Assembly: GCF_022271405.1 (NCBI RefSeq)
Contig: NZ_JAJNAL010000033.1
Coordinates: 1 to 56,714 of the forward strand
Direction: 5' to 3'
From: Rhodopseudomonas infernalis
GTDB lineage: Bacteria; Pseudomonadota; Alphaproteobacteria; Rhizobiales; Xanthobacteraceae
DNA: 56,714 bases
The stretch's first letter is position 1; each line of letters begins with the position of its first letter. The notes beneath the pieces were generated by a model. The model had not been told where the DNA came from. It did no database searches and saw nothing but the letters and a program-made list of their open reading frames with translations. This document shows positions 8,419-41,357 of this stretch, in pieces. Both the position numbers and the translations under genes were made by a program.

Positions 8419-8745
8419 ATGACGATCATGCCCACCAAATCCTCTCCCACCATCGCCCACCCCAAACGCCCGCCGCCGGTGCTGATCTGCGGCAAATGCC
8501 TCTCGCGCATCGACGACGGCAAGAAGCTGAAACAGGCGCTGAAATCGGAACTGAAACATGCCGCCGCCGCGCGAGGCGGCAAACGCGCCAAGCTCGTCAC
8601 CACCGGCTGCCTCGGCATCTGCCCGAAGCGCGCCGTCGTGACCGCCAGCGCAGCGACGCTGGGGCGAGGGGAGTATGTGCTGGTTGAGGAGGCGAAGGCC
8701 GTGCGTGAGGCGATGGCGGTGTTGTTGCCCGCACAGATTGACTAG
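8419..8745 (+). CDS. Thioredoxin-like [2Fe-2S] ferredoxin domain protein
   Basis: A 108-residue protein with the cysteine layout of thioredoxin-like [2Fe-2S] ferredoxins. LICGKCLSR comes early and TTGCLGICPK about 40 residues later, the latter matching the CxxxC half of the cluster site. It is probably a small electron carrier or sulfur-related protein; partners are unknown. I chose ATG 8419, although ATG 8428 is equally possible. Upstream in-frame sequence lies in the palindrome and is excluded. The intervening region is Lys/Ala-rich (KKLKQALKSELKHAAAARGGKR). Confidence 0.75.
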   Translation: MTIMPTKSSPTIAHPKRPPPVLICGKCLSRIDDGKKLKQALKSELKHAAAARGGKRAKLVTTGCLGICPKRAVVTASAATLGRGEYVLVEEAKAVREAMAVLLPAQID

Positions 8746-8773
8746 GCGCTGACGTTAGGCCGAGGCGATCAGC

Positions 8774-9058
8774 TCAGGCTACCTTCGGCTGGGCGACCAG
8801 ACTGATCCCAAGCGCATGCAGTACTTTTAGCACGGTCGCGAATTCTGGTTTGGTATCACCGCCGAGTGCGCGATACAGATTCTCGCGCGACAATCCGGTG
8901 TCCTCAGCGACGCCGGTCATTCCCTTGGCGCGGGCGACGGTGCCGATCGCCTTGGTGATCAGCACCGGATCCTCGGATTCGAACGCTTCGGTGAGATACT
9001 CTGCGATCGTCTCCGGGCTGTCGAGGTAATCGGCCGCGTCGAACGGTGTGGTGTTCAT
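8774..9058 (-). CDS. Orphan addiction-module antidote (HigA-like HTH)
   Basis: A 94-residue protein matching the probable addiction module antidote family that pairs with RelE/HigB-like toxins. An N-terminal FDAADYLDSPETIAEYLTEAFE segment is followed by a helix-turn-helix (GMTGVAEDTGLSRENLYRALG) and the LKVLHALGISL end. In this family the toxin gene normally lies directly upstream, yet 9059-9188 contains no toxin ORF, and the next gene is divergent and unrelated. The antitoxin therefore looks orphaned or domesticated. The upstream DNA is AT-rich. Confidence 0.85.
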   Translation of the reverse strand: MNTTPFDAADYLDSPETIAEYLTEAFESEDPVLITKAIGTVARAKGMTGVAEDTGLSRENLYRALGGDTKPEFATVLKVLHALGISLVAQPKVA

Positions 9059-9188
9059 GGCGGATCCCACGAGGCAGTTCTTTATTCTGAGAAATTTCCA
9101 CAAAGCTTAGCTTGAAGAACTGCCAAAAATACATCAAAATTCGGCTCAGGTCCCTGATATTTTGATTGTGCTATTTTGGTCGCCACTT

Positions 9189-9764
9189 ATGAGTGTGCTC
9201 CAGTTTATATCCGAACTTATTGGTCATTTGGCTTGGCCTTTAGTGATCTTAGTGTTGCCCTTGGTTTTTCGTCCTCAATTGAATGCGCTCGTCTCTGAGT
9301 TGAGATTCAAGGAGCTAACCCTTCCTGGTGGCGCAAAGATGTCGTTCGAAGAACGGCTTGAGGCGGGGCGGGTCATCGCTTCAGAGATGTCATCTCCCAT
9401 ACAGGATGATGCAGGAGTAGGTAGCGAAGCCAATACTCGGAGCGAGGTAATTCAGCGGCTAGCGGCTGAAGCGCCTGATGGCGCGATTGTTCTTGCCTTT
9501 ATTGAAGTCGATCGCGAAATTCAACGCCTCGCTGAACAGTTAGAAAAGCCACGTTGGTCGAATCAAACGGAGTTGCTCCGCGTACTCAGAGATCGCAACT
9601 TGATTGATCCTGCCTCAGAGCAACTCTTCAAAGTTATGCGAAGCGCGCGCAACGCGGCTGCGCACGGTCACCGCAATGTAGTGACGACTTTCGAGGCCGA
9701 AGAATTCATCCGTCAGTGTGAGCTTCTCAAGGCCGCACTGAGAGCGGCTAGCCAAAAGCTCTAG
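9189..9764 (+). CDS. Membrane-anchored hypothetical protein, atypical composition
   Basis: A 191-residue protein with an N-terminal membrane helix pair (about residues 1-27, MSVLQFISELIGHLAWPLVI) and a soluble C-terminal domain. The segment LRDRNLIDPASEQLFKVMRSARNAAAHG resembles the helical RxxxxH-like core of HEPN/DUF4145-type domains, but that is a weak resemblance. Codon use is clearly more AT-rich than in all neighbours (TTG, CTT, AGT and ATT are frequent), which suggests recent transfer together with the adjacent antitoxin. A TTG at 9162 could add nine residues. Function unknown. Confidence 0.7.
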   Translation: MSVLQFISELIGHLAWPLVILVLPLVFRPQLNALVSELRFKELTLPGGAKMSFEERLEAGRVIASEMSSPIQDDAGVGSEANTRSEVIQRLAAEAPDGAIVLAFIEVDREIQRLAEQLEKPRWSNQTELLRVLRDRNLIDPASEQLFKVMRSARNAAAHGHRNVVTTFEAEEFIRQCELLKAALRAASQKL

Positions 9765-9773
9765 ATAACTGTC

Positions 9774-12773
9774 CTACCTCTTCTTCCACCCACCCCGATG
9801 CCCCGGCGCGCCGCCGCTGCTGCGCGGGGCGGGGCCGAATTCAGGCCCTGACTCGCGCGAATTCTTCGGCTGATAGATCTTGCTCTCGGTCCCCGGGCCC
9901 ATTTCGTCGAGGGTCGGCTTGCGCGGTTTGGCGCGTTGCACTTTCTTGACTTCGTGGTAGCCGGCGATCCCCATCTCATCGAGGTCGGGCTTGTGCACCT
10001 TGCTGCGCGGGGTGTTGTTGCCGCCGCGCTCGGTCGAGAGCTTTGGCAGATTGGCGGACGCGCCGTATTTCTTGTCGCCCTTGTAGCTGCCGGCTTTCGC
10101 CGCCACGCCGCGTTGCTTCACGGTCGGGTCGTCGATCACCGCCAACTCCGTGGCGCGCAGGCGTTTGACTTCGTCGCGCAGCCGCGCGGCTTCCTCGAAG
10201 TTCAAATCGGCCGCGGCCTCGCGCATCCTTGTTTCGAGATCGGCCAGCACCGCCTCGAAATTATGGCCGATCACCGCGGCGTCGTCGGTGAAGCCCGAGC
10301 CCTTGCCATCGCCGATCTCGACCAGCACGTGGTCGCGCTCGTACACGCTATTCAGAATATCGCCGATCGACTTCTTGACGCTCTCCGGCGTGATGCCGTG
10401 CGCGATGTTGTACTCGACCTGCTTCTCGCGACGCCGCGAGGTCTCATCCATCGCGCGCTGCATCGAGCCGGTGACGTGGTCGGCGTAGAGGATGACCTTG
10501 CCGTCGACATTTCGCGCGGCGCGGCCGATGGTCTGGATGAGCGACGTTTCGCTGCGCAAAAAGCCTTCTTTATCCGCGTCGAGGATCGCGACCAGCGCGC
10601 ATTCCGGAATGTCGAGGCCTTCGCGCAGCAGGTTGATGCCGACCAGCGCGTCGAAGGCGCCGAGCCGCAGATCGCGGATGATCTCGATGCGCTCGATGGT
10701 GTCGATGTCCGAATGCATGTACCTGACGCGGATGCCCTGCTCGTGCAGAAACTCGGTGAGGTCTTCGGCCATCCGCTTGGTCAGCACGGTGATCAGCGAG
10801 CGATAACCGGCATTCGCGGTGGCGCGGACTTCGCCGACCAGATCGTCGACCTGCGTGCGTGCGGGTCGGATGTCCACCGGTGGATCGATCAGTCCGGTGG
10901 GGCGGATCACCTGCTCGACGAACACGCCGCCGCTCTCGTTCAACTCCCACGCCGCCGGCGTCGCCGACACGGCGACGGATTGCGGGCGCATCATATCCCA
11001 CTCTTCGAAGCGCAGCGGCCGGTTGTCCATACAGGACGGCAGCCGGAAGCCGTATTCGGCCAGCGTCGCCTTGCGCCGGAAGTCGCCTTTGAACATGCCG
11101 CCGATCTGCGGCACGGTGACGTGGCTTTCGTCGGCGAACACCAGCGCGTTGTCGGGCACGTATTCGAACAGTGTCGGCGGCGGCTCGCCCGGCCGGCGGC
11201 CGGTGAGGTAGCGTGAGTAGTTCTCGATGCCGGCGCAGCTGCCGGTCGCTTCCATCATCTCGATGTCGAACGTTGTGCGCTGCTCGAGCCGCTGCGCCTC
11301 GAGCAGGCGGCCCTGCGCGTGCAACTGCTCGAGCCGCCATTTCAGCTCGGTCTTGATCGACGAGATCGCCTGGATCAGCGTCGGGCGCGGAGTCACGTAG
11401 TGCGAGTTGGCGTAGATCTTGACGAATTCCAGTTCGTCCTGCTTGTGGCCGGTGAGCGGGTCGAATTCCTCGATGGCCTCGATCTCGTCGCCGAACGTCT
11501 TGATCCGCCAGGCGCGATCCTCGTAGTGCGCCGGAAAGATGTCGATGACGTCGCCGCGCACCCGGAAGGTGCCGCGGGTGAAGTCGGCCTGGGTGCGCTT
11601 GTACTGCAGCGCCACAAGGTCGGCGATCAGCTGGCGCTGGTCGATGCGCTCTCCGCGCTTCACCGCGAAGGTCATCGCCGTATAGGTCTCGACCGAGCCG
11701 ATACCGTAGATGCACGACACCGAGGCGACGATGATGACGTCGTCACGCTCGAGCAACGCGCGCGTCGCCGAATGCCGCATCCGGTCGATCTGCTCGTTGA
11801 TCGAGGAGTCTTTCTCGATGTAGGTGTCGGTGCGCGGGACGTAGGCCTCCGGCTGATAGTAGTCGTAATACGACACGAAGTATTCGACGGCGTTGTCGGG
11901 GAAGAAGTTCTTGAACTCGCCGTAGAGCTGCGCCGCCAGCGTCTTGTTGGGGGCCAGAATGATCGCCGGGCGCTGCGTGGCCTCGATCACCTTGGCCATG
12001 GTGTAGGTCTTGCCCGAGCCGGTGACGCCGAGCAGCACCTGCGTGCGATCGTTGCGGTCGATGCCCTCGACCAGTTCCTTGATGGCGGTCGGCTGGTCGC
12101 CCTTCGGCTCGTAGTCCGACTTGATGACGAAGCGCACGCCGCCTTCGGACTTCTCCGGCCTTGGCGGCCGATGCGGCACCCACAGCTTGACGCCACCGTC
12201 GTCGCCCTTGAATTCCGGGCGGCCCTCGCGGATCAGGCTTTCCAGCGCGTCGGCCGTGGCCTTGACGCCCAGCGCCTCCATCTTGTTGCGCGGTGGCCGC
12301 GCCAGCGCTTCGGCGTCGTCCTCCTCGGTCGGCAGCCCGAGCTGCCGTGCGAGTTCCGGATCGAGCGTCGGGATGGTGGCGGCGGTGCCGAAGTTCGGTC
12401 TGGCCTCGCCGGCCTCGAAGGTGGCTTGCGGCGCCTCTTCCAGACGGCCTCCGCCGGCACTGCCCGGCTGCGGATAAGGCTGCAGCGGTGTCGGTCGCGG
12501 CGCCCCGCCGTCGCCTGGGAATGTCTTCGGCGTCGAAGCACGGCCGCGATGCACCGCAGCCTCGCCACCGGTGCGGCGATCGCGTGAGTTGTCGGGCGGC
12601 GGCTGCAGGCCGGTACCCGAGCCGAGGCCCGCTTCGCCGCGGTTCAGCGCGGGGTTCAGCAGCTCGGCCAGCGCCGGTCCGATCGGCTTCACGTCGGGCC
12701 GGTGCGCCTTGGATTTCGGCGCGCGCGAGGTCTTGGCGGCCGGCTTTTTCGGAGTGTCAGGAGATTTCGCCAT
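9774..12773 (-). CDS. uvrB: Excinuclease ABC subunit B with long terminal extensions
   Basis: UvrB verifies DNA damage in nucleotide excision repair, loading from UvrA2B2 and recruiting UvrC. The catalytic core begins near residue 213 ([15 protein letters not shown]). Walker A is GVTGSGKT at 249-256. The beta-hairpin [17 protein letters not shown], the DESH box and the C-terminal UVR motif ([16 protein letters not shown]) are intact. At 999 residues it is about 330 longer than E. coli UvrB. There is a Pro/Gly-rich N-terminal extension of about 210 residues and a basic tail of about 110 residues carrying the repeated motif [16 protein letters not shown]. Start 12773 excludes an intergenic repeat that the open frame runs into. 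Confidence 0.95.
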
Positions 12774-17135: not shown

Positions 17136-17744
17136 ATGGCTGAGCAGTTCGAGAAGACGGGACAAAACGACAAAGCTGGCAACGGTGCCGGGGCGCGGAC
17201 CGCCCAGCCGCTCAAGGCGGTCAAGAAGGATGCGCAGAACGCCGTCAACGATGTCGCGGATCAGGCGTCCGACACCGGACGCGATCTCAAGGATCGGGTG
17301 GTCGGTCTAGCCGAGGAATCGGTCGACGCAGCCCGCGCCCAGGCGGAGGGATTGGCCGGGGCTGCACGCGAGTTCGCCTCTGAGGCGACGGAAGCTATAA
17401 AGAGCCGAGCCAACGAGCAGCGAGCGGCGGGCGCCGATTACATCGGCGGCGTTGCCGAGGCGATCCGCCGGGCATCGCGAGAGTTCGATAACGACTTGCC
17501 GGTCGCTGGCGTTTACTTGCGCAAGGCGGCCTCGAAGGTCGAAGAGATCTCCGACACCGTGCAGCAGGGCGATATTTCGACGCTGGTCCGTGGTGTTCAG
17601 GACTTCGCCCGCCGTCAGCCGACCGCATTCCTCGGGTTGGCCGTGCTTGCAGGGTTTGGCGCGGTGCGTTTCCTGAAGAGCTCTGGGAGCGCGCGGCAGC
17701 AGAGCGCGGCAGCGCCTCGCTTCAATGACGAGGATCGGAGCTGA
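17136..17744 (+). CDS. Ala-rich helical membrane-anchored protein
   Basis: A 202-residue protein starting MAEQFEKTGQNDKAGNGAG. It has a polar N-terminus, a long amphipathic helical region (ARAQAEGLAGAAREFASEATEAIKS) and one membrane segment near the end (RQPTAFLGLAVLAGFGAVRFLKSS). The pattern resembles LEA-like or ElaB/YqjD-like membrane-tethered proteins. It begins 19 bases after the DUF3618 gene, with GGACGGAGAT upstream, and ends 2 bases before the next start. This is clear operon structure. Function unknown. Confidence 0.8.
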   Translation: MAEQFEKTGQNDKAGNGAGARTAQPLKAVKKDAQNAVNDVADQASDTGRDLKDRVVGLAEESVDAARAQAEGLAGAAREFASEATEAIKSRANEQRAAGADYIGGVAEAIRRASREFDNDLPVAGVYLRKAASKVEEISDTVQQGDISTLVRGVQDFARRQPTAFLGLAVLAGFGAVRFLKSSGSARQQSAAAPRFNDEDRS

Positions 17745-17746
17745 CG

Positions 17747-18148
17747 ATGACCATGTCCTCGGGACCGGGAAATCGATCGATTCCTGAACTGGTCGGAGAC
17801 GCCTTCAACCAGTTCTCCAAGCTGATCAGCAACGAATTCGATCTGGCGCGTGCCGAGATGTCCGACAAGATCGGACAAATCGGCCGCGCGGTGGCGATGC
17901 TGGGTGCAGGGGCAGTGATCCTGATCCCTGGGCTGGTGGTGCTGCTGTTCGCGCTCGCGGCCCTGCTCATCGAGAACGGTTTCTCCGCATCGGTGGCTTA
18001 TCTGATCACGGGCGGTGGCGCCGTGATCGTTGCCGGCGCCTTGATGTGGATCGGCGTCAGCCGTTTGTCGCCCGAGACCTTGAAGCCGACCGTTACGATT
18101 GATCAGTTGCAGCGCGACAAGGTCGCGGCCAAGGAGATGGTGAAGTGA
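17747..18148 (+). CDS. Phage holin family (holin-X/DUF1469-type) membrane protein
   Basis: A 133-residue protein. An N-terminal amphipathic part (IPELVGDAFNQFSKLISNEFDLARAEMSDKI) precedes two transmembrane helices (about residues 48-75 and 80-103, with GAVILIPGLVVLLFALAALLI). This is the Actinobacterial holin-X/DUF1469 layout. Such genes sit with DUF3618 genes in many genomes, and a lytic role is not implied. An ATG at 17753 is an alternative start. The stop overlaps the GTG start of the next gene. Confidence 0.82.
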   Translation: MTMSSGPGNRSIPELVGDAFNQFSKLISNEFDLARAEMSDKIGQIGRAVAMLGAGAVILIPGLVVLLFALAALLIENGFSASVAYLITGGGAVIVAGALMWIGVSRLSPETLKPTVTIDQLQRDKVAAKEMVK

Positions 18149-27922: not shown

Positions 27923-28064
27923 CACCTCTCCCCGCGTGCGGGGAGAGGTCGGCACGCATCGTCAGATGCGGGCCGGGTGAGGGAGCGTCTCCTCGAGGCC
28001 GAGCCTCTGCGACTCGCGGCGACGCCCCCTCACCCCGACCCTCTCCCCGCGCGCGGGGAGAGGG
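27923..28064. repeat. Paired CTCTCCCCGC palindromes between urtD and urtE
   Basis: Two hairpins, CCTCTCCCCGC/GCGGGGAGAGG near 27925-27948 and CCCTCTCCCCGC/GCGGGGAGAGGG at 28039-28064, bracket a segment reading GGTGAGGG...CCCCTCACC. This composite repeat of the local CCCTCTCCC family interrupts the transporter operon. Confidence 0.8.
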
Positions 28065-28096
28065 AGCCTATCGCAACGGGTAAGGAGAGCACGATC

Positions 28097-28786
28097 ATGC
28101 TTGCTATCAACGATCTGCATGTCGCCTACGGCCAGAGCGAGGTGCTGCACGGGCTCAACATCAATGTCGCGCCGAACGAGATCGTCGCGATCATGGGCCG
28201 CAACGGCATGGGCAAGACCACGCTGATGAAATCGCTGATGGGCATCATCCCGCAGCGCTCGGGTTCGATCTCGATGGAAGGTGCCGAGCTCGGCGGGCTG
28301 AAGAGCTACGAGCGCGTCGCCAAGGGCCTCGCCTACGTGCCGCAGGGCCGCATGATCTTCTCGACCATGACGGTGAAGGAGAACATCGAGACCGGGCTCG
28401 TCGTCTCCGGCGAGAAGGATGTGCCGGGCGATCTCTACGAATTGTTTCCGGTGCTGCTCGAAATGAAGAGCCGGCGCGGCGGCAATCTGTCCGGCGGCCA
28501 GCAGCAACAGCTCGCGATCGCCCGCGCGCTCGCCACCAAGCCGAAAGTGCTGCTGCTCGACGAGCCGACCGAGGGCATCCAGCCGTCCATCATCAAGGAG
28601 ATGGGGCGAACGCTGAAGCGAATCCGCGACACCAAGGGGCTGTCGATCATCGTCTCCGAGCAGGTGCTGAGCTTCGCGCTCGACGTCGCCGACCGCGTGC
28701 TGGTGATCGAGAACGGCGAGATCGTCCGCGACGATCCGCGCGCCAGCGTCGATGAGGCGCAGGTCGCCAAATATCTGTCCGTCTGA
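28097..28786 (+). CDS. urtE: Urea/amide ABC transporter ATPase UrtE
   Basis: A 229-residue LivF-like nucleotide-binding subunit. Walker A is GRNGMGKTT, the signature LSGGQQQQLAIARAL, Walker B LLLLDEPTEGIQPS, and the switch region SIIVSEQVLSFAL. A strong ribosome site AAGGAGAG (28082-28089) supports ATG 28097. The frame extends upstream through the repeat and is rejected there. fmdA begins 46 bases downstream. Confidence 0.92.
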   Translation: MLAINDLHVAYGQSEVLHGLNINVAPNEIVAIMGRNGMGKTTLMKSLMGIIPQRSGSISMEGAELGGLKSYERVAKGLAYVPQGRMIFSTMTVKENIETGLVVSGEKDVPGDLYELFPVLLEMKSRRGGNLSGGQQQQLAIARALATKPKVLLLDEPTEGIQPSIIKEMGRTLKRIRDTKGLSIIVSEQVLSFALDVADRVLVIENGEIVRDDPRASVDEAQVAKYLSV

Positions 28787-28831: not shown

Positions 28832-30061
28832 ATGCCAGAGACATTGATCAAGGTCGATCTCACGCAGTCCGCTTACGACAACGAGATGGTCCACAACCGC
28901 TGGCACCCGGACATCCCGATGGCCGCGTGGGTCAATCCCGGCGATGACTTCATCGTCGAGACCTACGACTGGACCGGCGGCTTCATCAAGAACAACGACA
29001 GCGCCGACGACGTCCGCGACATCGATTTGTCGATCGTGCACTTCCTGTCGGGGCCGATCGGCGTCAAGGGCGCGGAGCCTGGCGATCTGCTCGTGGTCGA
29101 CCTGCTCGATGTCGGCCCGATGAAGGAGAGCCTGTGGGGCTTCAACGGCTTCTTCTCCAAGCAGAACGGCGGCGGCTTCCTCACCGATCACTTCCCGCTG
29201 GCGCAGAAGTCGATCTGGGACTTCAAGGGTATGTACACCTCGTCGCGCCACATCCCGGGCGTGAACTTCGCCGGCCTGATCCATCCCGGCCTGATCGGCT
29301 GTCTGCCCGATCCGAAGCTGCTGGCGACCTGGAACGAGCGCGAGACCGGCCTGATCGCCACCAACCCGACCCGCGTGCCCGGCCTCGCCAACCCGCCGTT
29401 CGGCCCGACCGCCCACATGGGCAAGCTGACCGGCGATGCGAAAGCCAAGGCCGGTGCCGAGGGCGCCCGCACCGTGCCGCCGCGCGAACACGGCGGCAAT
29501 TGCGACATCAAGGATCTGTCGCGCGGTTCGAAGATCTACTTCCCGGTCTACGTGCCGGGCGGCGGTCTTTCCATGGGCGATCTGCACTTCAGCCAGGGCG
29601 ACGGCGAAATCACCTTCTGCGGCGCCATCGAGATGGCCGGCTGGCTGCACATCAAGGTCGACATCATCAAGGACGGCGTCTCGAAATACGGCATCAAGAA
29701 CCCGATCTTCAAGCCGTCGCCGGTGACGCCGAACTACAAGGACTATCTGATCTTCGAGGGCATCTCGGTCGACGAGCAGGGCAAGCAGCATTATCTCGAC
29801 GTCACCGTCGCGTATCGCCAGGCCTGCCTCAACGCCATCGAGTATCTGAAGAAGTTCGGCTACTCGGGCGCCCAGGCCTATTCGATCCTCGGCACCGCGC
29901 CGGTGCAGGGCCACATCTCCGGCGTCGTCGACGTCCCCAACGCCTGCGCCACGCTATGGCTGCCGACCGAGATCTTCGACTTCGACATGATGCCGAGCTC
30001 GGCCGGCCCGGTGAAACACATCAAGGGCGACATCCAGATGCCGATCTCGCAGGACAAGTAA
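28832..30061 (+). CDS. fmdA: Formamidase
   Basis: FmdA hydrolyses formamide to formate and ammonia, or short amides in the wider acetamidase/formamidase family. The 409-residue length is as expected. Characteristic stretches are FIVETYDWTGG, PPREHGGNCDIKDLSRGSKIYFPVY (metal-binding region), GDGEITFCGAIEMAG and DVPNACATLWLPTEIFDFDMMP. It directly follows the ABC transporter in the same direction, with GGGAG before the ATG, so uptake and hydrolysis are one pathway that delivers ammonium. Formate is the second product. Confidence 0.94.
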   Translation: MPETLIKVDLTQSAYDNEMVHNRWHPDIPMAAWVNPGDDFIVETYDWTGGFIKNNDSADDVRDIDLSIVHFLSGPIGVKGAEPGDLLVVDLLDVGPMKESLWGFNGFFSKQNGGGFLTDHFPLAQKSIWDFKGMYTSSRHIPGVNFAGLIHPGLIGCLPDPKLLATWNERETGLIATNPTRVPGLANPPFGPTAHMGKLTGDAKAKAGAEGARTVPPREHGGNCDIKDLSRGSKIYFPVYVPGGGLSMGDLHFSQGDGEITFCGAIEMAGWLHIKVDIIKDGVSKYGIKNPIFKPSPVTPNYKDYLIFEGISVDEQGKQHYLDVTVAYRQACLNAIEYLKKFGYSGAQAYSILGTAPVQGHISGVVDVPNACATLWLPTEIFDFDMMPSSAGPVKHIKGDIQMPISQDK

Positions 30062-32015: not shown

Positions 32016-34034
32016 ATGAGTGCCCTTGCGGTTCAGCTCTGGTGCGTGACCGCGCTGCTGGCGCTCGCGGTGGTTGCCGTCGCGCTCAGCCGCAGCCCAC
32101 GGTTCGCCACGGTCGTGATCTATTCCGCGACGTTGCTGTGCTGCGCGGTCGCCACCGGCAGTGCGCTGAGCTGGCTGCTGCTGCACGCGAACGTCGCCGC
32201 CGAGCGCGTCCTGCCGATCGGGCTGCCGTGGCTCGGCGCGCATCTGCGGCTCGACGCACTCGCCGCGTTCTTCCTCGTCGTGGTCAATCTCGGCGGCACG
32301 CTCGCCAGCCTGTACGCGCTCGGCTATGGCCGCCACGAGCACGCGCCGCATCGCGTACTGCCGTTCTATCCGGCGTTCCTCGCCGGCATGAACATGGTGG
32401 TGCTCGCCGCCGATGCGTTCTCCTATCTGTTGAGCTGGGAGTTCATGTCGCTGGCGTCGTGGGCGCTGGTGATGGCGCATCACCGCGACCCCGCCAATCG
32501 CCGCGCCGGCTATGTGTATCTGCTGATGGCGAGTTTCGGCACGCTGATGCTGCTGCTCGCGTTCGGGCTGCTCGCCGGCACCGCGGGCGCTTACGATTTC
32601 GCCACCATCCGCATCGCGCCGCATGCGCCCTGGGTGGCGACGCTGGTGCTGCTGTTGATGCTGCTCGGCGCCGGCTCCAAGGCCGGCTTAGTGCCGCTGC
32701 ATGTCTGGCTGCCGCTGGCGCATCCGGCGGCGCCGAGCCACGTCTCGGCGCTGATGAGCGGCGTGATGACCAAGGTGGCGATCTACGGCTTCATCCGCGT
32801 GGTGTTCGATCTTCTCGGCACGCCGGACTGGTCGACCTCCGGCGTGGTGCTGGCGTTCGGCGGCGTCACCGCGGCGGTCGGCATTCTTTATGCGCTGATG
32901 GAAAGCGACCTGAAGCGGCTGCTGGCCTATTCGACGATCGAGAACGTCGGCGTGGTGTTCGTCAGCCTCGGCCTCGCGCTGGCGTTTCAGGCCAATGACG
33001 AGAAGTTGCCGGCGGCGCTGGCGTTCACGGCGGCGCTGTTTCACGTCTTCAACCACTCGCTGTTCAAGAGCCTGTTGTTCTTCGGCGCCGGCGCCGTGCT
33101 GAGCGCGACCGGCGAGCGCGACATGGACCGGCTCGGCGGGCTGATCCACCGCATGCCGGTGACCAGCGCGGTGTTTCTTGCCGGCAGCATCGCGATCTCG
33201 GCGCTGCCGCCATTCAACGGCTTCGTCTCCGAGTGGCTAATTTTCCAGGCGGTGCTGCAGAGCCCGGAGCTGCCGCAATGGGGCCTGAAGATTCTGGTGC
33301 CCGCAGTCGGCGCGCTGATGGCGCTCGCGGCGGCGCTGGCGGCGGCCTGTTTCGTCAAGGCTTACGGCGTCACCTTCCTCGGTCGGCCGCGCGGCGAAGC
33401 GCCGAGGCAGGCGCACGAGGTCGATCGCTTCTCGCTGTCGGCGATGATCATCCTCGCCGTGCTGTGCCTTGCCGCCGGCGTGTTGCCCGGCTTCGTGATG
33501 GACGCGCTGGCGCCGATCGCAGCCGACATTCTCGGCGGCCGTCTTCCGGCGCAGACGCCGCTGGCGTGGCTGTCGATCGTGCCGATCACCGAGAGCCGCG
33601 GCTCGTATAATGGGCTCCTGGTCGCGGTGTTCATCGCAGTGTCGGCATCGCTGGCCTTCGTGGCGATCCGGCTGGTCTCGTCCGGCGCGGTGCGCCGCGG
33701 GCCGGCCTGGGGCTGCGGCTTCACCGAGCCGGCACCGCTCGCGCAATATTCCGCGGCCGGTTTCGCGCAGCCGATCCGCCGGGTGTTCGGCACGCTGATC
33801 TTCCGCGCCCGCGACCACGTCACAATGCCGCCGCCCGGCGACGTCGCACCGGCGCGGCTGCGGATCGAACTGCACGATCAGGTGTGGGAACGGATCTACG
33901 CGCCGCTCGCGAACGGCATCGTCGGCACGGCCGTTCGGCTGAACCGGCTGCAGCTCCTCACCATCCGGGGCTATCTCAGCCTGGTGTTCGCCACCCTCGT
34001 CACGCTGCTGTTGGTGCTCGCGATATGGATGTGA
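32016..34034 (+). CDS. hyfB: Hydrogenase-4/Ehr antiporter-like subunit (HyfB type)
   Basis: A 672-residue polytopic membrane protein of the NuoL/M/N (Mrp antiporter-like) superfamily, probably an ion-translocating subunit. The conserved region includes LLSWEFMSLASWALVMAHH, SKAGLVPLHVWLPLAHPAAPSHVSALMSG and FNHSLFKSLLFFGAGAV, followed by AISALPPFNGFVSEWL. I chose ATG 32016, with GGGAG at 32001-32005. A TTG at 32013 would add one residue. Its stop overlaps the start of the next gene by 10 bases. It is the first gene of a six-gene operon encoding a complex-I-like enzyme whose large subunit lacks the nickel site. The symbol follows homology, not proven function. Confidence 0.88.
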   Translation: MSALAVQLWCVTALLALAVVAVALSRSPRFATVVIYSATLLCCAVATGSALSWLLLHANVAAERVLPIGLPWLGAHLRLDALAAFFLVVVNLGGTLASLYALGYGRHEHAPHRVLPFYPAFLAGMNMVVLAADAFSYLLSWEFMSLASWALVMAHHRDPANRRAGYVYLLMASFGTLMLLLAFGLLAGTAGAYDFATIRIAPHAPWVATLVLLLMLLGAGSKAGLVPLHVWLPLAHPAAPSHVSALMSGVMTKVAIYGFIRVVFDLLGTPDWSTSGVVLAFGGVTAAVGILYALMESDLKRLLAYSTIENVGVVFVSLGLALAFQANDEKLPAALAFTAALFHVFNHSLFKSLLFFGAGAVLSATGERDMDRLGGLIHRMPVTSAVFLAGSIAISALPPFNGFVSEWLIFQAVLQSPELPQWGLKILVPAVGALMALAAALAAACFVKAYGVTFLGRPRGEAPRQAHEVDRFSLSAMIILAVLCLAAGVLPGFVMDALAPIAADILGGRLPAQTPLAWLSIVPITESRGSYNGLLVAVFIAVSASLAFVAIRLVSSGAVRRGPAWGCGFTEPAPLAQYSAAGFAQPIRRVFGTLIFRARDHVTMPPPGDVAPARLRIELHDQVWERIYAPLANGIVGTAVRLNRLQLLTIRGYLSLVFATLVTLLLVLAIWM

Positions 34035-34981
34035 TCACCGACATTGCCGTGCAGGGCGTGCAGATGCTGCTGGTGTTCCTGCTGGCGCCGCTGCTCACCG
34101 GCTTCATCCGCAAGATCAAGGCGCGGCTGCAGCGCCGCCGCGGCCCGTCGCTGCTGCAGCCCTATCGCGATCTGATCCGGCTGCTGCGCAAGGAAGTCGT
34201 GCTGGCCGACAACGCCTCATGGCTGTTCCGCGCCGTGCCCTACGTCACCTTCGCGGCGATCTGGGTCGCGGCCGCGCTGGTGCCGACCTTCGCCACCGGG
34301 CTGCTATTCAACTGGACCGCCGATCTGATCGTCATCGTCGCGCTGCTCGGCACCGCGCGGTTCTTTCTCGCGCTCGCCGGCATGGATATCGGCACCTCGT
34401 TCGGCGGCATCGGCTCGTCGCGCGAAGTGATGATCGCGGCGCTCGCCGAGCCGGCAATGCTGATGATCGTGTTCTGCGTCGCGCTGGTGGCCGGCTCGAC
34501 GCATCTGTCGACCGTCGCCGACTACATCGCCTCCACCGCGGTCGGCCTGCGCGTCTCGCTCGGGCTCGCCATGATCGCGCTGGTGATGGTGGCGCTCGCC
34601 GAGAACGCCCGCATCCCCATCGACAATCCCTCGACCCATCTCGAGCTCACCATGGTGCACGAGGCGATGATCCTGGAATATTCCGGCCGGCATCTGGCGC
34701 TGATCGAATTCGGCGCGCAGCTCAAGCTGCTGCTCTATGTCTCGCTGATCGTCTGCCTGTTCTATCCCTGGGGCATCGGCATCTTCGGCGCCGGCCTCGC
34801 GGCCTACGTGGCCGGCGCCGCGTTGTATCTGCTCAAGATCACCATCGCAGGCTTCCTGCTGGCGGTGTTCGAAACCGCCACCGCCAAGATGCGGGTGTTC
34901 CGCGTGCCGCAGTTCCTCGGCGCGGCGCTGATGCTCGGCCTGCTAGGCACGCTTCTCCTCTTTGTGTCGAAGGGGCTGTAG
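34025..34981 (+). CDS. hyfC: NuoH/HyfC-type membrane subunit
   Basis: A 318-residue respiratory complex I subunit 1 family protein that links the hydrophilic module to the membrane arm. Typical segments are RLQRRRGPSLLQPYRDLIRLLRK and ALAENARIPIDNPSTHLELTMVHEAMILEYSG, the acidic loop equivalent to that of NuoH near the quinone region. About eight helices are visible. The start lies inside the end of hyfB (10-base overlap) and the next gene begins 2 bases after its stop, so translation is coupled. Confidence 0.9.
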   Translation: MDVITDIAVQGVQMLLVFLLAPLLTGFIRKIKARLQRRRGPSLLQPYRDLIRLLRKEVVLADNASWLFRAVPYVTFAAIWVAAALVPTFATGLLFNWTADLIVIVALLGTARFFLALAGMDIGTSFGGIGSSREVMIAALAEPAMLMIVFCVALVAGSTHLSTVADYIASTAVGLRVSLGLAMIALVMVALAENARIPIDNPSTHLELTMVHEAMILEYSGRHLALIEFGAQLKLLLYVSLIVCLFYPWGIGIFGAGLAAYVAGAALYLLKITIAGFLLAVFETATAKMRVFRVPQFLGAALMLGLLGTLLLFVSKGL

Positions 34982-34983
34982 CG

Positions 34984-35646
34984 ATGCACGGGCTCGCTTT
35001 CGACATCTCGCATTCGCTGGCCGGCGGCCTGGTGCTGGTTTCGTTCATGATGCTGTATCAGGACCGGTTGACGTCGCTGCTCAACGTGTTCGCGCTGCAC
35101 GCGATCATGCTGTCGGCGGCGGTGGCGTGGCAGGCGCTGATCCAGGACGCGCCGCATCTCTACGTTACCGCGGCGATCGCGCTGTTGTTCAAGGCGATCA
35201 TCATTCCGGTGGCGCTGCGCCGGATCGTCTACAGGCTCGGAATCCATCGCGACATCGAGACCGTGGTGGGCATCGGCCCGACCATGCTGGCCGGCATGGG
35301 GCTGGTGGCATTGTCGCTGGCCTTGATGCTGCGCGTCACCGCCGATGCCGATGCGCTGGCGCGCGAAGATCTCGCCTTCGCGCTGTCCGTGGTGCTGCTC
35401 GGCCTGCTGTTCATGGTGACGCGGCGCAACGCCGTCAGCCAGGTGGTCGGCTTCATGTCGCTGGAGAACGGGCTGATCCTCGCCGCCGCCGGCGCCAAGG
35501 GCATGCCGCTGGTGGTCGAGATCAGCGTCGCGTTCTCGGTGCTGATCGCCTTCATCGTGATCGGCATCGTGCTGTTCCGGATCCGCGAACGCTTCGACTC
35601 GGTCGATGTCTCGCAGCTCGACGTCTCGCGCGGAGAGCGGACATGA
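34984..35646 (+). CDS. hyfE: HyfE-type membrane subunit
   Basis: A 220-residue hydrophobic protein of the hydrogenase-4 subunit E family (NuoK-like C-terminal region). It has about six helices. The segment RRNAVSQVVGFMSLENGLILAAAG carries the conserved NuoK-like glutamate, and the polar tail reads RIRERFDSVDVSQLD. ATG 34984 follows the hyfC stop by 2 bases, and its stop overlaps hyfF as ATGA. It is probably part of the proton- or ion-conducting arm. Confidence 0.85.
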   Translation: MHGLAFDISHSLAGGLVLVSFMMLYQDRLTSLLNVFALHAIMLSAAVAWQALIQDAPHLYVTAAIALLFKAIIIPVALRRIVYRLGIHRDIETVVGIGPTMLAGMGLVALSLALMLRVTADADALAREDLAFALSVVLLGLLFMVTRRNAVSQVVGFMSLENGLILAAAGAKGMPLVVEISVAFSVLIAFIVIGIVLFRIRERFDSVDVSQLDVSRGERT

Positions 35647-37094
35647 CGATGTCCGGGATCGATCCGGTGGTGGGCGTGCTGCTGATCCCGGTCTGCGCGG
35701 CTGTCGTGCTGGCACTGCTGCCGGGTTACAAGCTCACCGCGAAACTCAACGTGCTGGCGAGTCTCGGCAGTTTCCTTTGCGCCGCCTCGCTACTGGTGCT
35801 GCCGCGCCCGGCGCCGGGGCCGTACATCCTGGTCGACGATCTCAACATCGTCTTCATCGTGCTGAACACCTTCGTGGGCTTCACCACCAGTCTGTTCAGC
35901 GCCAGCTACATCGCCCACGAACTCGAGACCGGCAAGCTGACGCCGACCTATCTGCGGTTCTACCACGCGATGTATCAGATCATGATGTTCGGCATGAACC
36001 TGGCGTTCATGTCGAACAATATCGGCCTGATGTGGGTGGCGGTCGAGTTGGCGACGCTGACCACGGTGCTGATGGTCGGCATCTATCGGACGCCGGCGGC
36101 GCTCGAGGCGGCGTGGAAATACTTCATTCTCGGCAGCGTCGGCATCGCGCTGGCGTTGTTCGGCACCATCCTGATCTACATGGCGGCGCGGCCGGTCGTC
36201 GGCGAGGGGCCGGACGGCATGATCTGGACCGTGCTGGTGGCGCGCGCCTCCGGCTTCGACGCGGCGCTGCTCAACGTCGCCTTCGTGTTCCTGTTTCTCG
36301 GCTACGGCACCAAGGTCGGCCTCGCGCCGCTGCATGCCTGGCTGCCGGATGCGCACGCCGAAGGCCCGACACCGATTTCGGCGGTGCTGTCCGGCCTCTT
36401 GCTCAACGTCGCCCTGTATGCGCTGCTGCGCTTCAAGATGCTGCTCGCCGCCAATGGCGACGCGATGCCGCCCGGCGTGCTGATGATCGTGATGGGGCTG
36501 GGGTCGCTGCTGTTCGCCGCCTTCATGCTGTATCGCCGCCGCGACATCAAACGGCTGTTCGCCTATTCGTCGATCGAACACATGGGCATCATCGTGTTCG
36601 CGTTCGGCATGGGCGGGCCGCTGGCGAATTTCGCAGGCCTCTTGCACATGGTGATGCACAGCCTGACCAAGTCGGCGATCTTCTACGCGGTCGGCCACAT
36701 CACCCAGGTCAAGGGCACGCAGTCGCTGGCGAAGATCCGCGGCATCACTGAGACCCATCCGGTGCTCGGCTGGGGGCTCGTGGTCGGCGTGGTGGCGATC
36801 GCCGGGCTGCCGCCGCTCGGCATCTTCATGAGCGAATTCCTGCTGGTGTCGTCGACCTTCGCGCGCTCGCCCTGGCTGGCGCTGCTGCTGGTGTTCGGCA
36901 TCCTGGTGGCGTTCGGCGCGTTGACGCTGCGGCTCACCGGCATCGCCTTCGGCGCGCCGCGCGGCAGCCGGCAGCCGGTGCAGGCGTCCTACGTGCCGAT
37001 GTTCGCGCATCTGACCTTGGTACTCGTCGCCGGCGTGTATCTGCCGGCGCCGGTGGTGGCCTGGTTCCAGCACGTCGCCAAGCTGTTGGGTTAG
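35643..37094 (+). CDS. hyfF: Second antiporter-like subunit (HyfF type)
   Basis: A 483-residue protein of the NuoL/M/N superfamily and the second antiporter-like subunit of the complex. Visible are LMWVAVELATLTTVLMVG (membrane glutamate), TKVGLAPLHAWLPDAHAEGPTPISAVLSG (conserved lysine and helix) and HSLTKSAIFYAVGHITQVKG. It begins in the hyfE stop (ATGA) and ends 15 bases before hyfG. Two antiporter-like subunits imply at least two putative ion channels. Confidence 0.9.
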   Translation: MTMSGIDPVVGVLLIPVCAAVVLALLPGYKLTAKLNVLASLGSFLCAASLLVLPRPAPGPYILVDDLNIVFIVLNTFVGFTTSLFSASYIAHELETGKLTPTYLRFYHAMYQIMMFGMNLAFMSNNIGLMWVAVELATLTTVLMVGIYRTPAALEAAWKYFILGSVGIALALFGTILIYMAARPVVGEGPDGMIWTVLVARASGFDAALLNVAFVFLFLGYGTKVGLAPLHAWLPDAHAEGPTPISAVLSGLLLNVALYALLRFKMLLAANGDAMPPGVLMIVMGLGSLLFAAFMLYRRRDIKRLFAYSSIEHMGIIVFAFGMGGPLANFAGLLHMVMHSLTKSAIFYAVGHITQVKGTQSLAKIRGITETHPVLGWGLVVGVVAIAGLPPLGIFMSEFLLVSSTFARSPWLALLLVFGILVAFGALTLRLTGIAFGAPRGSRQPVQASYVPMFAHLTLVLVAGVYLPAPVVAWFQHVAKLLG

Positions 37095-37109: not shown

Positions 37110-38621
37110 ATGCCGTCGCTGATCGATCTCAACCTCGAAGGCCTGCAGGTGGCGCGGCATCGGCCGTGGCCCCGCACGGTGGTCGATCGCGCGGTGTGGA
37201 GCTTCGCGGTCCGGATGCTGAGCGAGCGGCAGTGGCAATTGCTGTCGCTGTGGGGCGAGCCTTCGCGCGTGCACATGGCGCTGTTCGATCCGCGCAGCGG
37301 CGAGATCGGCGTCATCAGCCTCGACTGCCCGAACGGCACATTTCCCTCGGTCGCGGCGAGGCATCTGCCGGCGCTGCGGCTGGAACGCACGATCACCGAT
37401 CTGTTCGGCCTGAAGCCCGAAGGTGCGATCGACGACCGGCCGTGGCTCGATCACGGCCAATGGGGCGTCCGCACGCCGCTCGGCGAGCGCGTTGAAGCAG
37501 ATGCGCCGTCGCCTGCCTATCGTTTCCTGCCGGTCGAAGGCGCCGGCACGCATCAGGTCGCGGTCGGTCCGGTGCATGCCGGCATCATCGAGCCCGGCCA
37601 TTTCCGATTCACCGTCAGCGGCGAGACCGTGGTGCGGCTGGAGCAGCGGCTCGGCTATGTCCACAAGGGCATCGACGGGCTGATCGCCGGCGCCGATCTG
37701 CCCCGCGCCGCGCAGCTCGCCGGCCGCGTCTCGGGCGATTCGACGGTGGCGTATGCGCTGGCGTTTGCGCGCGCGGTCGAGGCCGCGGCGGAGATCGCCG
37801 TGCCTGCTCGCGCGGTGTGGCTGCGGGCGCTGTGCGCCGAGCTCGAGCGCCTCGCCAATCACCTCGGCGACATCGGCGCGATTTGCAACGATGCGGCCTT
37901 CGCCATCATGCTGGCGCAGTTCGGCGTGCTGCGCGAGAACGTGCTGCGCGCCGCCGACACAGCCTTCGGCCATCGCCTGATGCGCGACGTGGTGACGCCC
38001 GGCGGCGTCGCGCGCGATCTCGACGATGCTGGCGTGGCGGCGCTCCGCGCGGCCCTGGCCGTGGTGCGGACAAAGCTGCCGGCGCTGATCGCGCTCTACG
38101 ACAGCACAGCGTCGCTGCAGGACCGCACCGTCGCGACCGGCACGCTGAAGCCGGCGCTGGCCGATCAATACGCCGCCGGCGGCTTCGTCGGCCGTGCCTC
38201 CGGCCGCTCCTTCGACGCGCGACGCACGCTCGGCTACGCGCCGTATGACGAGCTGCGCTTCGATGTCCCGGTGCTGACCGAGGGCGACGTCGACGCGCGG
38301 GTCTGGATCCGGATTCGCGAGACCGAGCAGAGCCTCGCACTGGTCGACCAAATTCTCGACCGGCTGCCGCGCGGCGACATTTTCGTCGCGCCGACGCTGC
38401 CGGCGCAGGTCTGCGAAGGCATGGCGCTGGTCGAAGGGTTTCGCGGCGATATTCTGGTCTGGCTGCGGCTGCAGGGCGGCGTCGTCGAGCGCTGCCATCT
38501 GCGCGATCCGTCGTGGTTTCAATGGCCGCTGCTGGAAGCGGTGATCGAGGGCAACATCATCGCCGACTTCCCGCTGTGCAATAAGTCGTTCAACTGCTCC
38601 TATTCGGGCGTGGATCTGTAG
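37110..38621 (+). CDS. hyfG: HyfG/EhrL-type large subunit lacking the NiFe cysteines
   Basis: A 503-residue protein made of an N-terminal NuoC-like part (about 1-150) fused to a NuoD/[NiFe] hydrogenase large-subunit part. In true hydrogenases motif L1 is RxCGxC and L2 is DPCxxC. Here L1 reads RVSGDS (206-211), so both cysteines are Ser208 and Ser211. The C-terminal end reads LCNKSFNCSYSG (489-500) with one Cys (C496) where two should be. It therefore cannot hold a Ni-Fe centre in the usual way. The fold is otherwise well kept (YVHKGIDGLI, CAELERLANHLGDIG). This is the pattern reported for Ehr complexes, whose function is unknown. Confidence 0.88.
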   Translation: MPSLIDLNLEGLQVARHRPWPRTVVDRAVWSFAVRMLSERQWQLLSLWGEPSRVHMALFDPRSGEIGVISLDCPNGTFPSVAARHLPALRLERTITDLFGLKPEGAIDDRPWLDHGQWGVRTPLGERVEADAPSPAYRFLPVEGAGTHQVAVGPVHAGIIEPGHFRFTVSGETVVRLEQRLGYVHKGIDGLIAGADLPRAAQLAGRVSGDSTVAYALAFARAVEAAAEIAVPARAVWLRALCAELERLANHLGDIGAICNDAAFAIMLAQFGVLRENVLRAADTAFGHRLMRDVVTPGGVARDLDDAGVAALRAALAVVRTKLPALIALYDSTASLQDRTVATGTLKPALADQYAAGGFVGRASGRSFDARRTLGYAPYDELRFDVPVLTEGDVDARVWIRIRETEQSLALVDQILDRLPRGDIFVAPTLPAQVCEGMALVEGFRGDILVWLRLQGGVVERCHLRDPSWFQWPLLEAVIEGNIIADFPLCNKSFNCSYSGVDL

Positions 38622-38623: not shown

Positions 38624-39157
38624 ATGCGCAAGCTGCTGTTCGAAAGCCTGTTCGCAAGATCTCTGACGGAGGTCGCGCCCGCGCCGGATGATGCGGCGGC
38701 CGCCGAACTCGCCGCGCTGGTCGGCACCCGCGCGCGCCGTGCGCTCGGCCGCAGCCTTGCGATCCGCGAGGTCGATGCCGGCTCGTGCAACGGCTGCGAG
38801 CTGGAAATCCACGCGCTGAGCAACGCGTATTACGACGCCGAGCGGTTCGGCCTGCGCTTCGTCGCGTCGCCGCGCCATGCCGACGTGCTGATGGTCACCG
38901 GGCCGGTGACGTATAATATGCGTGAGGCGCTGCGTCTGACTTACGACGCCGTGCCCGGACCCAAATGGGTGGTCGCGGTCGGCGACTGCGCGAAAGACGG
39001 CGGCTGCTTTGCCGGCAGCTACGCGGTCGTCGGCGGCGTCTCCGCGGTGATCCCGGTCGATTTGCACATTCCCGGCTGTCCGCCGCCGCCGCTGCAGATC
39101 CTGCGCGGCCTGCTGGCGCTTCTCGATCGCGTCGCCACAGGCGAGACCTCGCGTTGA
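38624..39157 (+). CDS. hyfI: HyfI/NuoB-type small subunit with one [4Fe-4S] site
   Basis: A 177-residue small subunit of the NuoB/hydrogenase small-subunit family. The four FeS ligands appear intact: C55 and C58 in GSCNGCELE, C122 in GDCAKDGG and C152 in PGCPPPP. The CxxC spacing is hydrogenase-like, unlike the adjacent CC pair of complex I NuoB. C128 is an extra cysteine. The N-terminal 40 residues are Ala-rich. It lies 2 bases after hyfG and closes the operon. A ferredoxin-like subunit (HyfA/HyfH type) is not encoded here. Confidence 0.9.
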   Translation: MRKLLFESLFARSLTEVAPAPDDAAAAELAALVGTRARRALGRSLAIREVDAGSCNGCELEIHALSNAYYDAERFGLRFVASPRHADVLMVTGPVTYNMREALRLTYDAVPGPKWVVAVGDCAKDGGCFAGSYAVVGGVSAVIPVDLHIPGCPPPPLQILRGLLALLDRVATGETSR

Positions 39158-39299: not shown

Positions 39300-41357
39300 G
39301 TGATATTTGGTATTTCAAGGGGTGGCGCGGGTGATCGTGCGCCGATTTCAGTCTCGCGCATTCGCGCTGCATTCCTGACAAGCGCCGTCATGACGGTAAT
39401 GTTCGGCGCCTCGCTCGCTCCCGCGCAGGCGCAGTTCGCGCGATTGTACGGCTTCGGCGATAGCTATGCCGATACCGGCGCGGCGCCCGGCGGTGCGTAT
39501 CGACTCATCGGCCTGTACGGCACCGGCACCATCAATGTCCCGTTTCCGCCCTATACGCTGGTCCCATCAGACTTCTGGCCCTGTCCCAGCCCGACCTATA
39601 CGAGCTGCCGCTTCACCGGCAGCACCAATTTCGTCGACTCGCTGCAATCGATCTACGGACTGCCGGGACTGACGAACTTCTCGATCGGCGGCGCCCGCAC
39701 CAATAACACCAATACGATGCCGTTTCTGTCGAGCAGCTACGGGCTGCCGTACGAGCTGCAACAGTTCGCCGCCAGCGGCATCCGCCTCACCGAGCGCGAC
39801 CTGATTGCGCTGTCGATCGGCGGCAACGACCTGTCGGGCATCAATGTCGGCACCGGCGATGTCGCCTCGCAGACGGCCATCATCGTGTCGAGCGCGCTGC
39901 AGTCGGCCGCCAACGCGGTCGGCGGCGTGCAGCAATTGGTGGCGGCCGGCGCGCGTAACATCGCCTGGCTCGGCACCGGCAGCTCGAAGTGGTTTCCAGA
40001 GGCGACGCTCGGCTCGCAGGGGACGACGATCGGCCATTTCAATTTCAGCGCGCCGCAGCGCGACGCCTGGGCCGACACCTATTATCAGCAGACGCAGCTG
40101 ATGCTGGCGCCGATGGCGCAGGCCGGTGTGCGCATCTTCCTGTTCAATTTCGGCATCCTGCAGCAGCGCGTCGCCGAAAATCCGGCGCTGTACGGTTTCG
40201 CCGGCGTGCCCGCGGGCTTCACCGGCTGCGAGGCCGGGCTTGGCACCGGCTCGACACCAACCACTGTCGCGGTGAATGTCGCGGGCTGCTTCTATGAAAA
40301 TTCCGTGCATCCGACCGGCGCCGCGATGGCGCTGATCGCCAGCTACATGGCCAACCAGATCGACGCGCCGACCACGGTGACGCCGCAGGCCGGCATCGCG
40401 ACGAGCCTGCTCGGCAGCTTCTCGAATTCGGTGTTCGATCGCCTCGACGCTGGCCGGCGTTTTCAGCCTTCCGGCCCCAATGCCGCCATGGCGGCGATGC
40501 CCACCAAGGCCGTGACGCTCGCGGACCCGGCGGATCGCTGGTCGGTCTACGGCGCCGCAAGCTATGCGGGCGGTAGCCGCGACCGGCAGTTCTACGCCAC
40601 TGGCTACGATTACGACGCGGCGGGCGGATATCTTGGGCTGGAATATCGGCTCAACGCCAATTGGCGGGTGGGCGGCGTGTTCGGCTATTCGCAGCCGGAC
40701 GTGAAGCTTGCGGTGCAGGACGCGCGCAACCGCATCGATGCGTTCCAGTTCGCCGGCTACAGCTCCTACACTGACGCGCACTGGTTCGCCGATGGTCTGG
40801 TGGCTTACGGCCGGCAGGATTTCACGCTCGAACGTCGCGGCATCATCGACATCATCCGCGCCAACACCAACGCCGACGTGGTCACCGTCGCGGCGCGCGG
40901 CGGCTATCTGTTCGATGTCGGCCAGCTGCGCGTCGGTCCGATCGCGGGGCTGAACTATACCAGCGCCACGATCCGGGGCTACACCGAAGCCGGCGACGTG
41001 CTGCTGACGATGGCGGTCGATCGTCAGACGCTCGATACGCTGACCGGCGATGCCGGCGTGCAATTCCGCTATCCGCTGCAATTCGGCAACGGCCTCTATG
41101 CGCCGTTCCTGAACCTCACCGCCGCGCACGACTTCCTCGGCTCCAGCCACACCATCACCACCACGCTGGTGTCGGCGCCGCTGTTGCCGATCCTGACGCC
41201 GGTGTCGGCCGATGGCGGCACTTATGGCCGGGTCGCGGCGGGCGTCTCGGCGCTGGTTGCCAGCAACGTCACCGCGACGCTGACCGGCACCAGCAGCTTT
41301 GCCCGCAAGGGTGGCAACGACGCCGGCGTCACCGGCGCCGTCAAGCTGGCGTTCTGA
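39300..41357 (+). CDS. GDSL-type autotransporter esterase
   Basis: A 685-residue secreted enzyme of the EstA-type autotransporter group. The signal peptide ends near APAQA|QFARL (residue 44). The passenger SGNH domain has S55 in FGDSYADTG, G130 in NFSIGGA and N176 in GGNDLSG, then ENSVHPTG. There H337 is present, but the Asp expected three residues before it is Asn334. The C-terminal beta-barrel (about 400-685) ends in Phe (AVKLAF), as outer-membrane proteins do. I accept GTG 39300 because GGGGAAGGGG lies just upstream. It is downstream of, but separate from, the hyf operon. Confidence 0.87.
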   Translation: MIFGISRGGAGDRAPISVSRIRAAFLTSAVMTVMFGASLAPAQAQFARLYGFGDSYADTGAAPGGAYRLIGLYGTGTINVPFPPYTLVPSDFWPCPSPTYTSCRFTGSTNFVDSLQSIYGLPGLTNFSIGGARTNNTNTMPFLSSSYGLPYELQQFAASGIRLTERDLIALSIGGNDLSGINVGTGDVASQTAIIVSSALQSAANAVGGVQQLVAAGARNIAWLGTGSSKWFPEATLGSQGTTIGHFNFSAPQRDAWADTYYQQTQLMLAPMAQAGVRIFLFNFGILQQRVAENPALYGFAGVPAGFTGCEAGLGTGSTPTTVAVNVAGCFYENSVHPTGAAMALIASYMANQIDAPTTVTPQAGIATSLLGSFSNSVFDRLDAGRRFQPSGPNAAMAAMPTKAVTLADPADRWSVYGAASYAGGSRDRQFYATGYDYDAAGGYLGLEYRLNANWRVGGVFGYSQPDVKLAVQDARNRIDAFQFAGYSSYTDAHWFADGLVAYGRQDFTLERRGIIDIIRANTNADVVTVAARGGYLFDVGQLRVGPIAGLNYTSATIRGYTEAGDVLLTMAVDRQTLDTLTGDAGVQFRYPLQFGNGLYAPFLNLTAAHDFLGSSHTITTTLVSAPLLPILTPVSADGGTYGRVAAGVSALVASNVTATLTGTSSFARKGGNDAGVTGAVKLAF

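Follow-up and report, generated by a model that had tools for sequence, protein, structure and literature searches.

An Ehr-type operon of Rhodopseudomonas infernalis with a hydrogenase-like large subunit lacking the nickel ligands, and its fluoride-linked sister branch

Energy-converting-hydrogenase-related (Ehr) complexes stand between hydrogenases and respiratory complex I, without a known reaction. Where PMC6349859, PMC10284858 and PMC6728331 treat them, they are regarded as non-hydrogenases of unknown function, as the original prediction for the DNA described here also held. In the condition comparisons of PMC7894505, Geobacter Ehr subunits reach higher abundance on formate than under hydrogen-containing conditions, and the section of PMC6901956 on Mycobacterium tuberculosis rv0082-rv0087 places these genes under the hypoxia regulator Rv0081 and calls them a putative [NiFe]-hydrogenase. 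Here we analyse a six-gene operon of this kind, and above all its large subunit, in the window, namely the whole 56,714-nucleotide stretch of Rhodopseudomonas infernalis contig NZ_JAJNAL010000033.1. A term look-up in PMC5533749 and PMC7888657 returned no mention of the operon in the text that it covered.

A large subunit without nickel ligands

The large subunit (37110..38621, + strand, 503 amino acids, ATG start) carries neither of the motifs RxCGxC and DPCxxC that mark group 4 [NiFe] hydrogenases. Residues 206-211 (codons 37725..37742, + strand), as read directly and as originally predicted, are RVSGDS, with codons 208 and 211 both TCG. The chain terminates with NKSFNCSYSGVDL (residues 491-503, codons 38580..38618, + strand) where hydrogenases have xGSLDPCxxCTDR, and has no C-terminal maturation peptide. 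Its best solved relative by sequence is Escherichia coli HycE (7z0s_E, E 7.9e-51; HMMER alignment). HMMER and MAFFT alignments both match HycE RVCGIC to RVSGDS, and LDPCYSC, within the HycE C-terminal stretch GSLDPCYSCTD, to FNCSYSG. The four Ni-binding cysteines of HycE thus fall on S208, S211, S497 and G500, with 0 of 4 being Cys.

The complete list of cysteines in the protein is 73, 242, 259, 435, 462, 490 and 496. None of these lies in an invariant or at least 90% conserved column of a 52-sequence alignment, so the four ligands have not moved elsewhere in the protein, the circumstance that would have told against the original prediction. That prediction had also described the DPCxxC motif as replaced by a stretch with one cysteine, C496. 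The replacement stands, but C496 occupies the Pro position of DPCxxC (136 Cys and 11 Leu among the 150 window-type rows) and, as aligned, is not a leftover Ni ligand.

Besides the window, these 150 rows contain its 80 nearest public relatives plus 69 further sequences, an uneven spread, after removal of duplicate loci (L124, L125, L126, L128, L132, and L104, which is the window itself). At position 208 we counted 146 Ser, 2 Cys, 1 Ala and 1 Gly; at position 211, 134 Ser, 5 Ala, 4 Met, 4 Thr, 2 Cys and 1 gap; at position 497, 145 Ser, 3 Ala and 2 Asn; position 500 is Gly in 150/150. More than one Cys across the four positions occurs in 0/150 rows, and G500, K492 and D502 are invariant. Among the 80 nearest public homologues, 79 keep Ser at 208 and all 80 at 211, which rules out sequencing error, and ratios of nonsynonymous to synonymous substitution (dN/dS) of 0.17-0.31 against five relatives indicate purifying selection. 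The protein is thus constrained and not a pseudogene, as had been proposed, whereas the expected conservation of both serines holds for near-invariant Ser208 and fails for Ser211, which varies in distant relatives. Klebsiella HycE (L094), whose C-terminus is disturbed in its record, was left out of the tree and the counts; this K. aerogenes region (100-4503) also has a split hyfB/hycD, and both features are probably record errors.

The rest of the pocket is as distinctive. The canopy Asp common to hydrogenases and complex I is Asn495 in 149/150 window-type rows, and the pocket has gained D210 (149/150), K492 (150/150) and N491 (149/150). The complex I features of NuoD are likewise missing: I160 stands in place of the quinone His of the beta1-beta2 loop, G209 in place of the quinone Tyr and N495 in place of the canopy Asp. 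On this alignment, the change of the canopy Asp to Asn495 and the gain of Asp210 and Lys492 are more telling than the serines at the ligand positions. The signature D210, K492, N495, S208 and G500 provides targets for structure or mutant work.

Clade, operon and electron wiring

We placed 83 large subunits in a tree (IQ-TREE, LG+C20), which has no outside root and is to be read with caution because of long branches for the fluoride-linked, Nuo and Ech-like rows; 74 Cys-less rows fall on one side of a branch with bootstrap 100 and a Shimodaira-Hasegawa-like approximate likelihood ratio (SH-aLRT) of 99. Window-type rows (70) form one group (100/97) and fluoride-linked rows (4) another (100/98), a grouping that a preliminary quick tree with 104 rows also shows. 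Geobacter EhrL and Rv0087 are not in the tree; homologues from Rhodococcus, M. branderi and Allomeiothermus are. Alignment and tree therefore place the large subunit inside a Cys-less Ehr-type clade, as had been anticipated. The bridge between hydrogenases and complex I named in the original prediction would be an evolutionary reading, on which unrooted trees such as these are silent.

The operon has the order HyfB-HyfC-HyfE-HyfF-large-small, in support of the Ehr-type operon first proposed. Its genes are consecutive on the + strand, with overlaps of at most 10 bases and gaps of at most 15, and all are intact open reading frames (ORFs). A HyfB-like antiporter-type membrane subunit (32016..34034, + strand, 672 amino acids, alternative start TTG 32013; PF00361) scores 901.9 bits against the NCBIfam model for hydrogenase 4 subunit B (cut-off 667) and keeps E142, K222, K253, K351 and the Lys within FVKAYG. 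It overlaps by 10 bases a HyfC/NuoH-like membrane subunit (34025..34981, + strand, 318 amino acids; PF00146), which is followed by a HyfE-like membrane subunit (34984..35646, + strand, 220 amino acids) that has no Pfam match and reaches 80.6 bits, under the cut-off of 136, for 'hydrogenase 4 membrane subunit'. The HyfF-like antiporter-type membrane subunit (35643..37094, + strand, 483 amino acids; PF00361) scores 921 bits for hydrogenase 4 subunit F (cut-off 533). With the exception of the sub-threshold HyfE-like protein, these matches identify a hydrogenase-4-like membrane arm with antiporter-type subunits, as is typical of Ehr. Downstream of the large subunit lies a NuoB/HycG-like small subunit (38624..39157, + strand, 177 amino acids; PF01058, 112.5 bits), in which C55, C58, C122 and C152 are the predicted set for one [4Fe-4S] cluster. 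Judged by gene content and phylogeny, the operon is an Ehr complex, an already known kind within a widespread family.

Among public homologues of the large subunit the nearest, at 92% identity, comes from an R. palustris metagenome-assembled genome, and 10 of the 16 genomes of the genus, the source genome included, encode it. In an even sample of 398 Pseudomonadota genomes, the large subunit has a match at E <= 1e-50 in 71. Eight of these matches, at 31-32% identity, were assigned to the HycE type, and the three of the eight that we fetched all read CCCC at the ligand positions. The Ehr type accounts for 63 of the 398 genomes; ligand positions were read in 62 of these, the match in genome G159 being cut by a contig end.

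HypD is required to build the NiFe site. We looked for it in 47 of the 63 Ehr genomes, all at least 90% complete and with single-contig G232, G302 and G154 among them; it was missing from 26, present in 3/3 true group-4 genomes tested and also carried by the source genome of the window. Its absence from 26/47 genomes suggests that Ehr complexes are independent of NiFe maturation. A HypD-type maturation argument has already been published for M. tuberculosis, in the part of PMC6728331 on that organism.

The four [4Fe-4S] cysteines of the small subunit are kept in 144 of the 147 Ehr loci with a match; the remaining matches are two truncated and one spurious-looking, and a further three rows gave no match. 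A ferredoxin-like subunit (HycF/HyfH/EchF) was found on the operon strand in 0 of 108 scorable Ehr operons, 42 of the 150 rows being too short in flank to score, while a dicluster ferredoxin ORF adjoins 7/7 group-4 controls. Raw ferredoxin-motif ORFs occur in 6/108 loci: in four they overlap operon genes out of frame, and the other two loci (L145 and L161) have Rnf-looking genes ~4-5 kb downstream. As a side observation, an Azospirillum locus (L095, 198-9074) pairs a four-Cys group-4 complex with an adjacent gene resembling aldehyde:ferredoxin oxidoreductase.

Beyond the six genes, no constant partner was found in 81 loci including the window, nor in 37 other loci. A small helix-turn-helix (XRE-like) gene, the only near-constant neighbour, lies before the operon in 69 of 81 alphaproteobacteria-dominated loci (at ~4.6 kb in L005-L084); it is missing from the window and from Rhodopseudomonas loci L005-L008, L042, L050 and L054. 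The next-commonest real-looking ORF appears in 24/81 loci and weakly resembles a methyltransferase, scoring under the Pfam cut-off; in the 37 other loci, several of which end at a contig edge, the next real-looking ORF appears in 5. We considered a formamidase (28832-30061) as a formate source and set it aside as chance linkage, since it occurs in only 3 of the 80 relatives' loci, all Rhodopseudomonas. Upstream, it adjoins an ATP-binding cassette (ABC) transporter ATPase (27977-28786, UrtE-like reading), likewise found in 3/80. A GDSL-esterase autotransporter (39300-41357) lies just downstream of the operon and recurs in 1/80. On a Methylovirgula plasmid (L086), the Ehr operon sits between an F0F1 ATP synthase operon whose first gene is atpD and, on the other side, fae (2711-9273, 17245-17763); this is a single case, and the atpD-first order is presumably like that of N-type ATPases.

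A fluoride-riboswitch sister branch

Weinberg 2010, in its list of crcB-motif genes, includes 'formate hydrogen lyase', and a 2024 review (PMC11139923), in its passage on this gene, repeats the fluoride-linked formate hydrogenlyase as a formic acid-oxidising enzyme. Five plasmid loci related to the window operon carry 26 fluoride riboswitches above the Rfam gathering score: 7 in Burkholderia cenocepacia (L091), 6 in Alicyclobacillus (L092), 2 in the soil bacterium Caballeronia sp. SBC1 (L099, a locus without annotation), 4 in M. branderi (L100) and 7 in B. multivorans (L103). Each of the five loci has one riboswitch in front of its first gene, in the same orientation and at a distance of 51 to 240 bases (6173-6243 in L091, 9396-9456 in L092, 4167-4237 in L099, 8250-8323 in L100 and 8630-8700 in L103). 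The first genes under it include a NUDIX gene and then a NuoH-like gene in L100, a lone large subunit in L092 and a NuoH-like gene in L099. The loci span four genera and three phyla but are not independent, because the L103 large subunit is 87.5% identical to that of L091. This group was labelled after its riboswitches had been seen; it is still one branch on the tree.

The large subunits of L091, L092 and L099 share 30-36% identity with that of the window across ~72% of the latter. None of the four Ni cysteines is present in L091, L092, L099 or L103, and one (position 497) is present in L100; these five loci therefore cannot encode ordinary NiFe formate hydrogenlyases. Their pocket carries another residue set (E/D491, A492, G495), and the small subunits of L091 and L100 carry a fused ferredoxin domain. 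Neighbouring genes include crcB (L091, L092, L103), a chloride-channel-type gene (L091), pyrophosphatase (L091, L103), enolase (L100) and DUF190 (L091, L092, L100, L103). On the Alicyclobacillus plasmid, the lone Ehr-like large subunit (9602-11098) has its own riboswitch and no adjacent annotated membrane subunits. Our literature search, in the text available to it, found no published link between the fluoride riboswitch and Cys-less or Ehr complexes. These results suggest that the 'formate hydrogenlyase' annotation in the fluoride regulon should be revised, at any rate for these five operons. For a Cys-less complex, the branch also supplies an inducing signal and, in fluoride sensitivity, a candidate phenotype.

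We considered and rejected control of the window operon by fluoride: Rfam models matched nothing in the window, and RF01734 nothing in the source genome. Rfam found no fluoride riboswitch in window-type loci L007, L047, L086, L088-L090, L101 and L102 either. A home-made riboswitch model (8 base pairs, with only its own members as positive control) gave two weak matches across the window and L005-L090, at 25 bits inside the hyfB-like gene of L007 and at 19.9 bits in L047, both unconfirmed by Rfam. Genome-level association was also absent, with riboswitches in 10/63 Ehr genomes versus 66/398 overall, counts in which stricter filters lose some weak matches. In those ten genomes the riboswitch lies on another contig or ~1.6 Mb away (G154). 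A fluoride-type large subunit was found in 0/398 Pseudomonadota genomes at E <= 1e-60, a strict cut with no known positive in the sample, which excludes close relatives only. With its own clade lacking a fluoride link, any transfer of function from the fluoride branch to the window operon is therefore hypothetical.

Proposed mechanism and comparison with known systems

Sequence and a predicted structure, made for the large subunit, give it the hydrogenase/NuoD fold, and HycE is its best match in both fold and sequence. At slightly under even odds (about 45%), we propose that Ehr is an ion pump of the complex I superfamily that has no [NiFe] centre, takes electrons from a soluble donor and passes them to an organic acceptor bound where the metal site was lost. 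The donor, a ferredoxin or flavodoxin of low potential, would dock directly on the small subunit, and electrons would enter through its single [4Fe-4S] cluster. The acceptor would take up two electrons; most likely it is a quinone, posed differently from that in complex I and seated in the former NiFe pocket among E161, S208-G209-D210, N250/H251, R445 and K492-S493-x-N495. Protonation of the acceptor through a conserved R362/E404/H251 path would drive export of H+ (or Na+) by the HyfB/HyfF-type subunits; such pumping is predicted from the canonical Glu/Lys residues kept in the HyfB-type subunit.

Three observations weigh against this proposal. The HyfF-like subunit is without the Lys that HyfB keeps in what we take to be helices 8 and 12. 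No donor or acceptor gene is linked to the operon, which leaves the redox reaction a proposal. I160, G209 and the canopy Asn disfavour a complex I-like quinone site, and loss of the canopy Asp impairs complex I according to PMC9474812. An extension of the ion-pump proposal is possible but clearly more tentative: Ehr complexes may serve as auxiliary proton pumps free of NiFe, and fluoride resistance may have recruited one of their branches, in which proton export or restored membrane voltage would let Fluc/CLC-F expel fluoride. The 'formate hydrogenlyase' listed among fluoride-riboswitch genes would then, at least in this branch, be an Ehr complex, and the window operon would encode such a machine too, differently regulated and with an invariant charged acceptor pocket of its own (D210, K492, N495).

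A doubtful though serious competitor has the pocket binding a small polar non-quinone substrate (such as an organic acid, thiol/persulfide or one-carbon compound) through D210, K492, N495 and R445, its reduction or oxidation driving the pump. The loss of the quinone residues and the near-invariance of the new charged or polar D210, K492 and N491 speak for it, as does the formate-associated abundance of Geobacter Ehr in the comparisons of PMC7894505, and the E/D491, A492 and G495 of the fluoride-linked rows would fit another ligand. However, no enzyme gene is constantly linked to the operon, and a family scan of four neighbours in the window found no formate dehydrogenase. Loss of redox chemistry altogether, leaving an Mrp-like cation/proton antiporter with a relic peripheral arm, would account for the missing metal site, the two retained antiporter-type subunits and the lack of an electron-input subunit; we consider it improbable, since a relic would drift, whereas the [4Fe-4S] cysteines are kept in 144/147 loci and the pocket is strongly constrained. 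Far less credible is a functional [NiFe] hydrogenase with unusual ligands, in which Ser or other residues bind Ni: HycE is the best match and the source genome has HypD, but 0/4 cysteines remain, Gly500 is universal (150/150) and 26/47 genomes lack HypD. A decaying or mis-sequenced hydrogenase, for which we found no supporting evidence, is refuted by conservation (Ser208 in 79/80 and Ser211 in 80/80 near relatives, dN/dS 0.17-0.31, six intact ORFs).

Set against described systems, the operon differs from complex I (NuoD/NuoCD, the 49 kDa subunit) in lacking the quinone His, the Tyr and the canopy Asp as well as an NADH module. It differs from E. coli hydrogenase-3, the formate hydrogenlyase (FHL) complex (HycE, 7z0s), and from hydrogenase-4 (HyfG) in having no Ni ligands, C-terminal peptide or HycF/HyfH ferredoxin subunit, and in the change of the canopy Asp of HycE/HyfG to Asn. 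The annotated Ehr regions that we inspected are without HycH, HycI or hyp genes, whereas HycH/HycI occur in the FHL regions of Azospirillum and Klebsiella. With the fluoride-linked 'formate hydrogenlyase' operons, a sister branch, the window operon shares a large subunit without the Ni-Cys set, while those operons have an upstream fluoride riboswitch, a ferredoxin fusion (L091, L100) and different pocket residues. Some named Ehr complexes have a proposed formate dehydrogenase partner in the papers' own discussion of them, whereas none was seen at this operon. Among the closest known systems are the named Ehr complexes of Geobacter (GSU0739-0745), M. tuberculosis (Rv0082-Rv0087), comammox Nitrospira and Margulisbacteria: all have a group 4-related large subunit without metal motifs and, in the Ehr sections of PMC6349859, PMC10284858, PMC7894505 and PMC6728331, a hydrogenase-4/Ech-like membrane arm and a function given as unknown.
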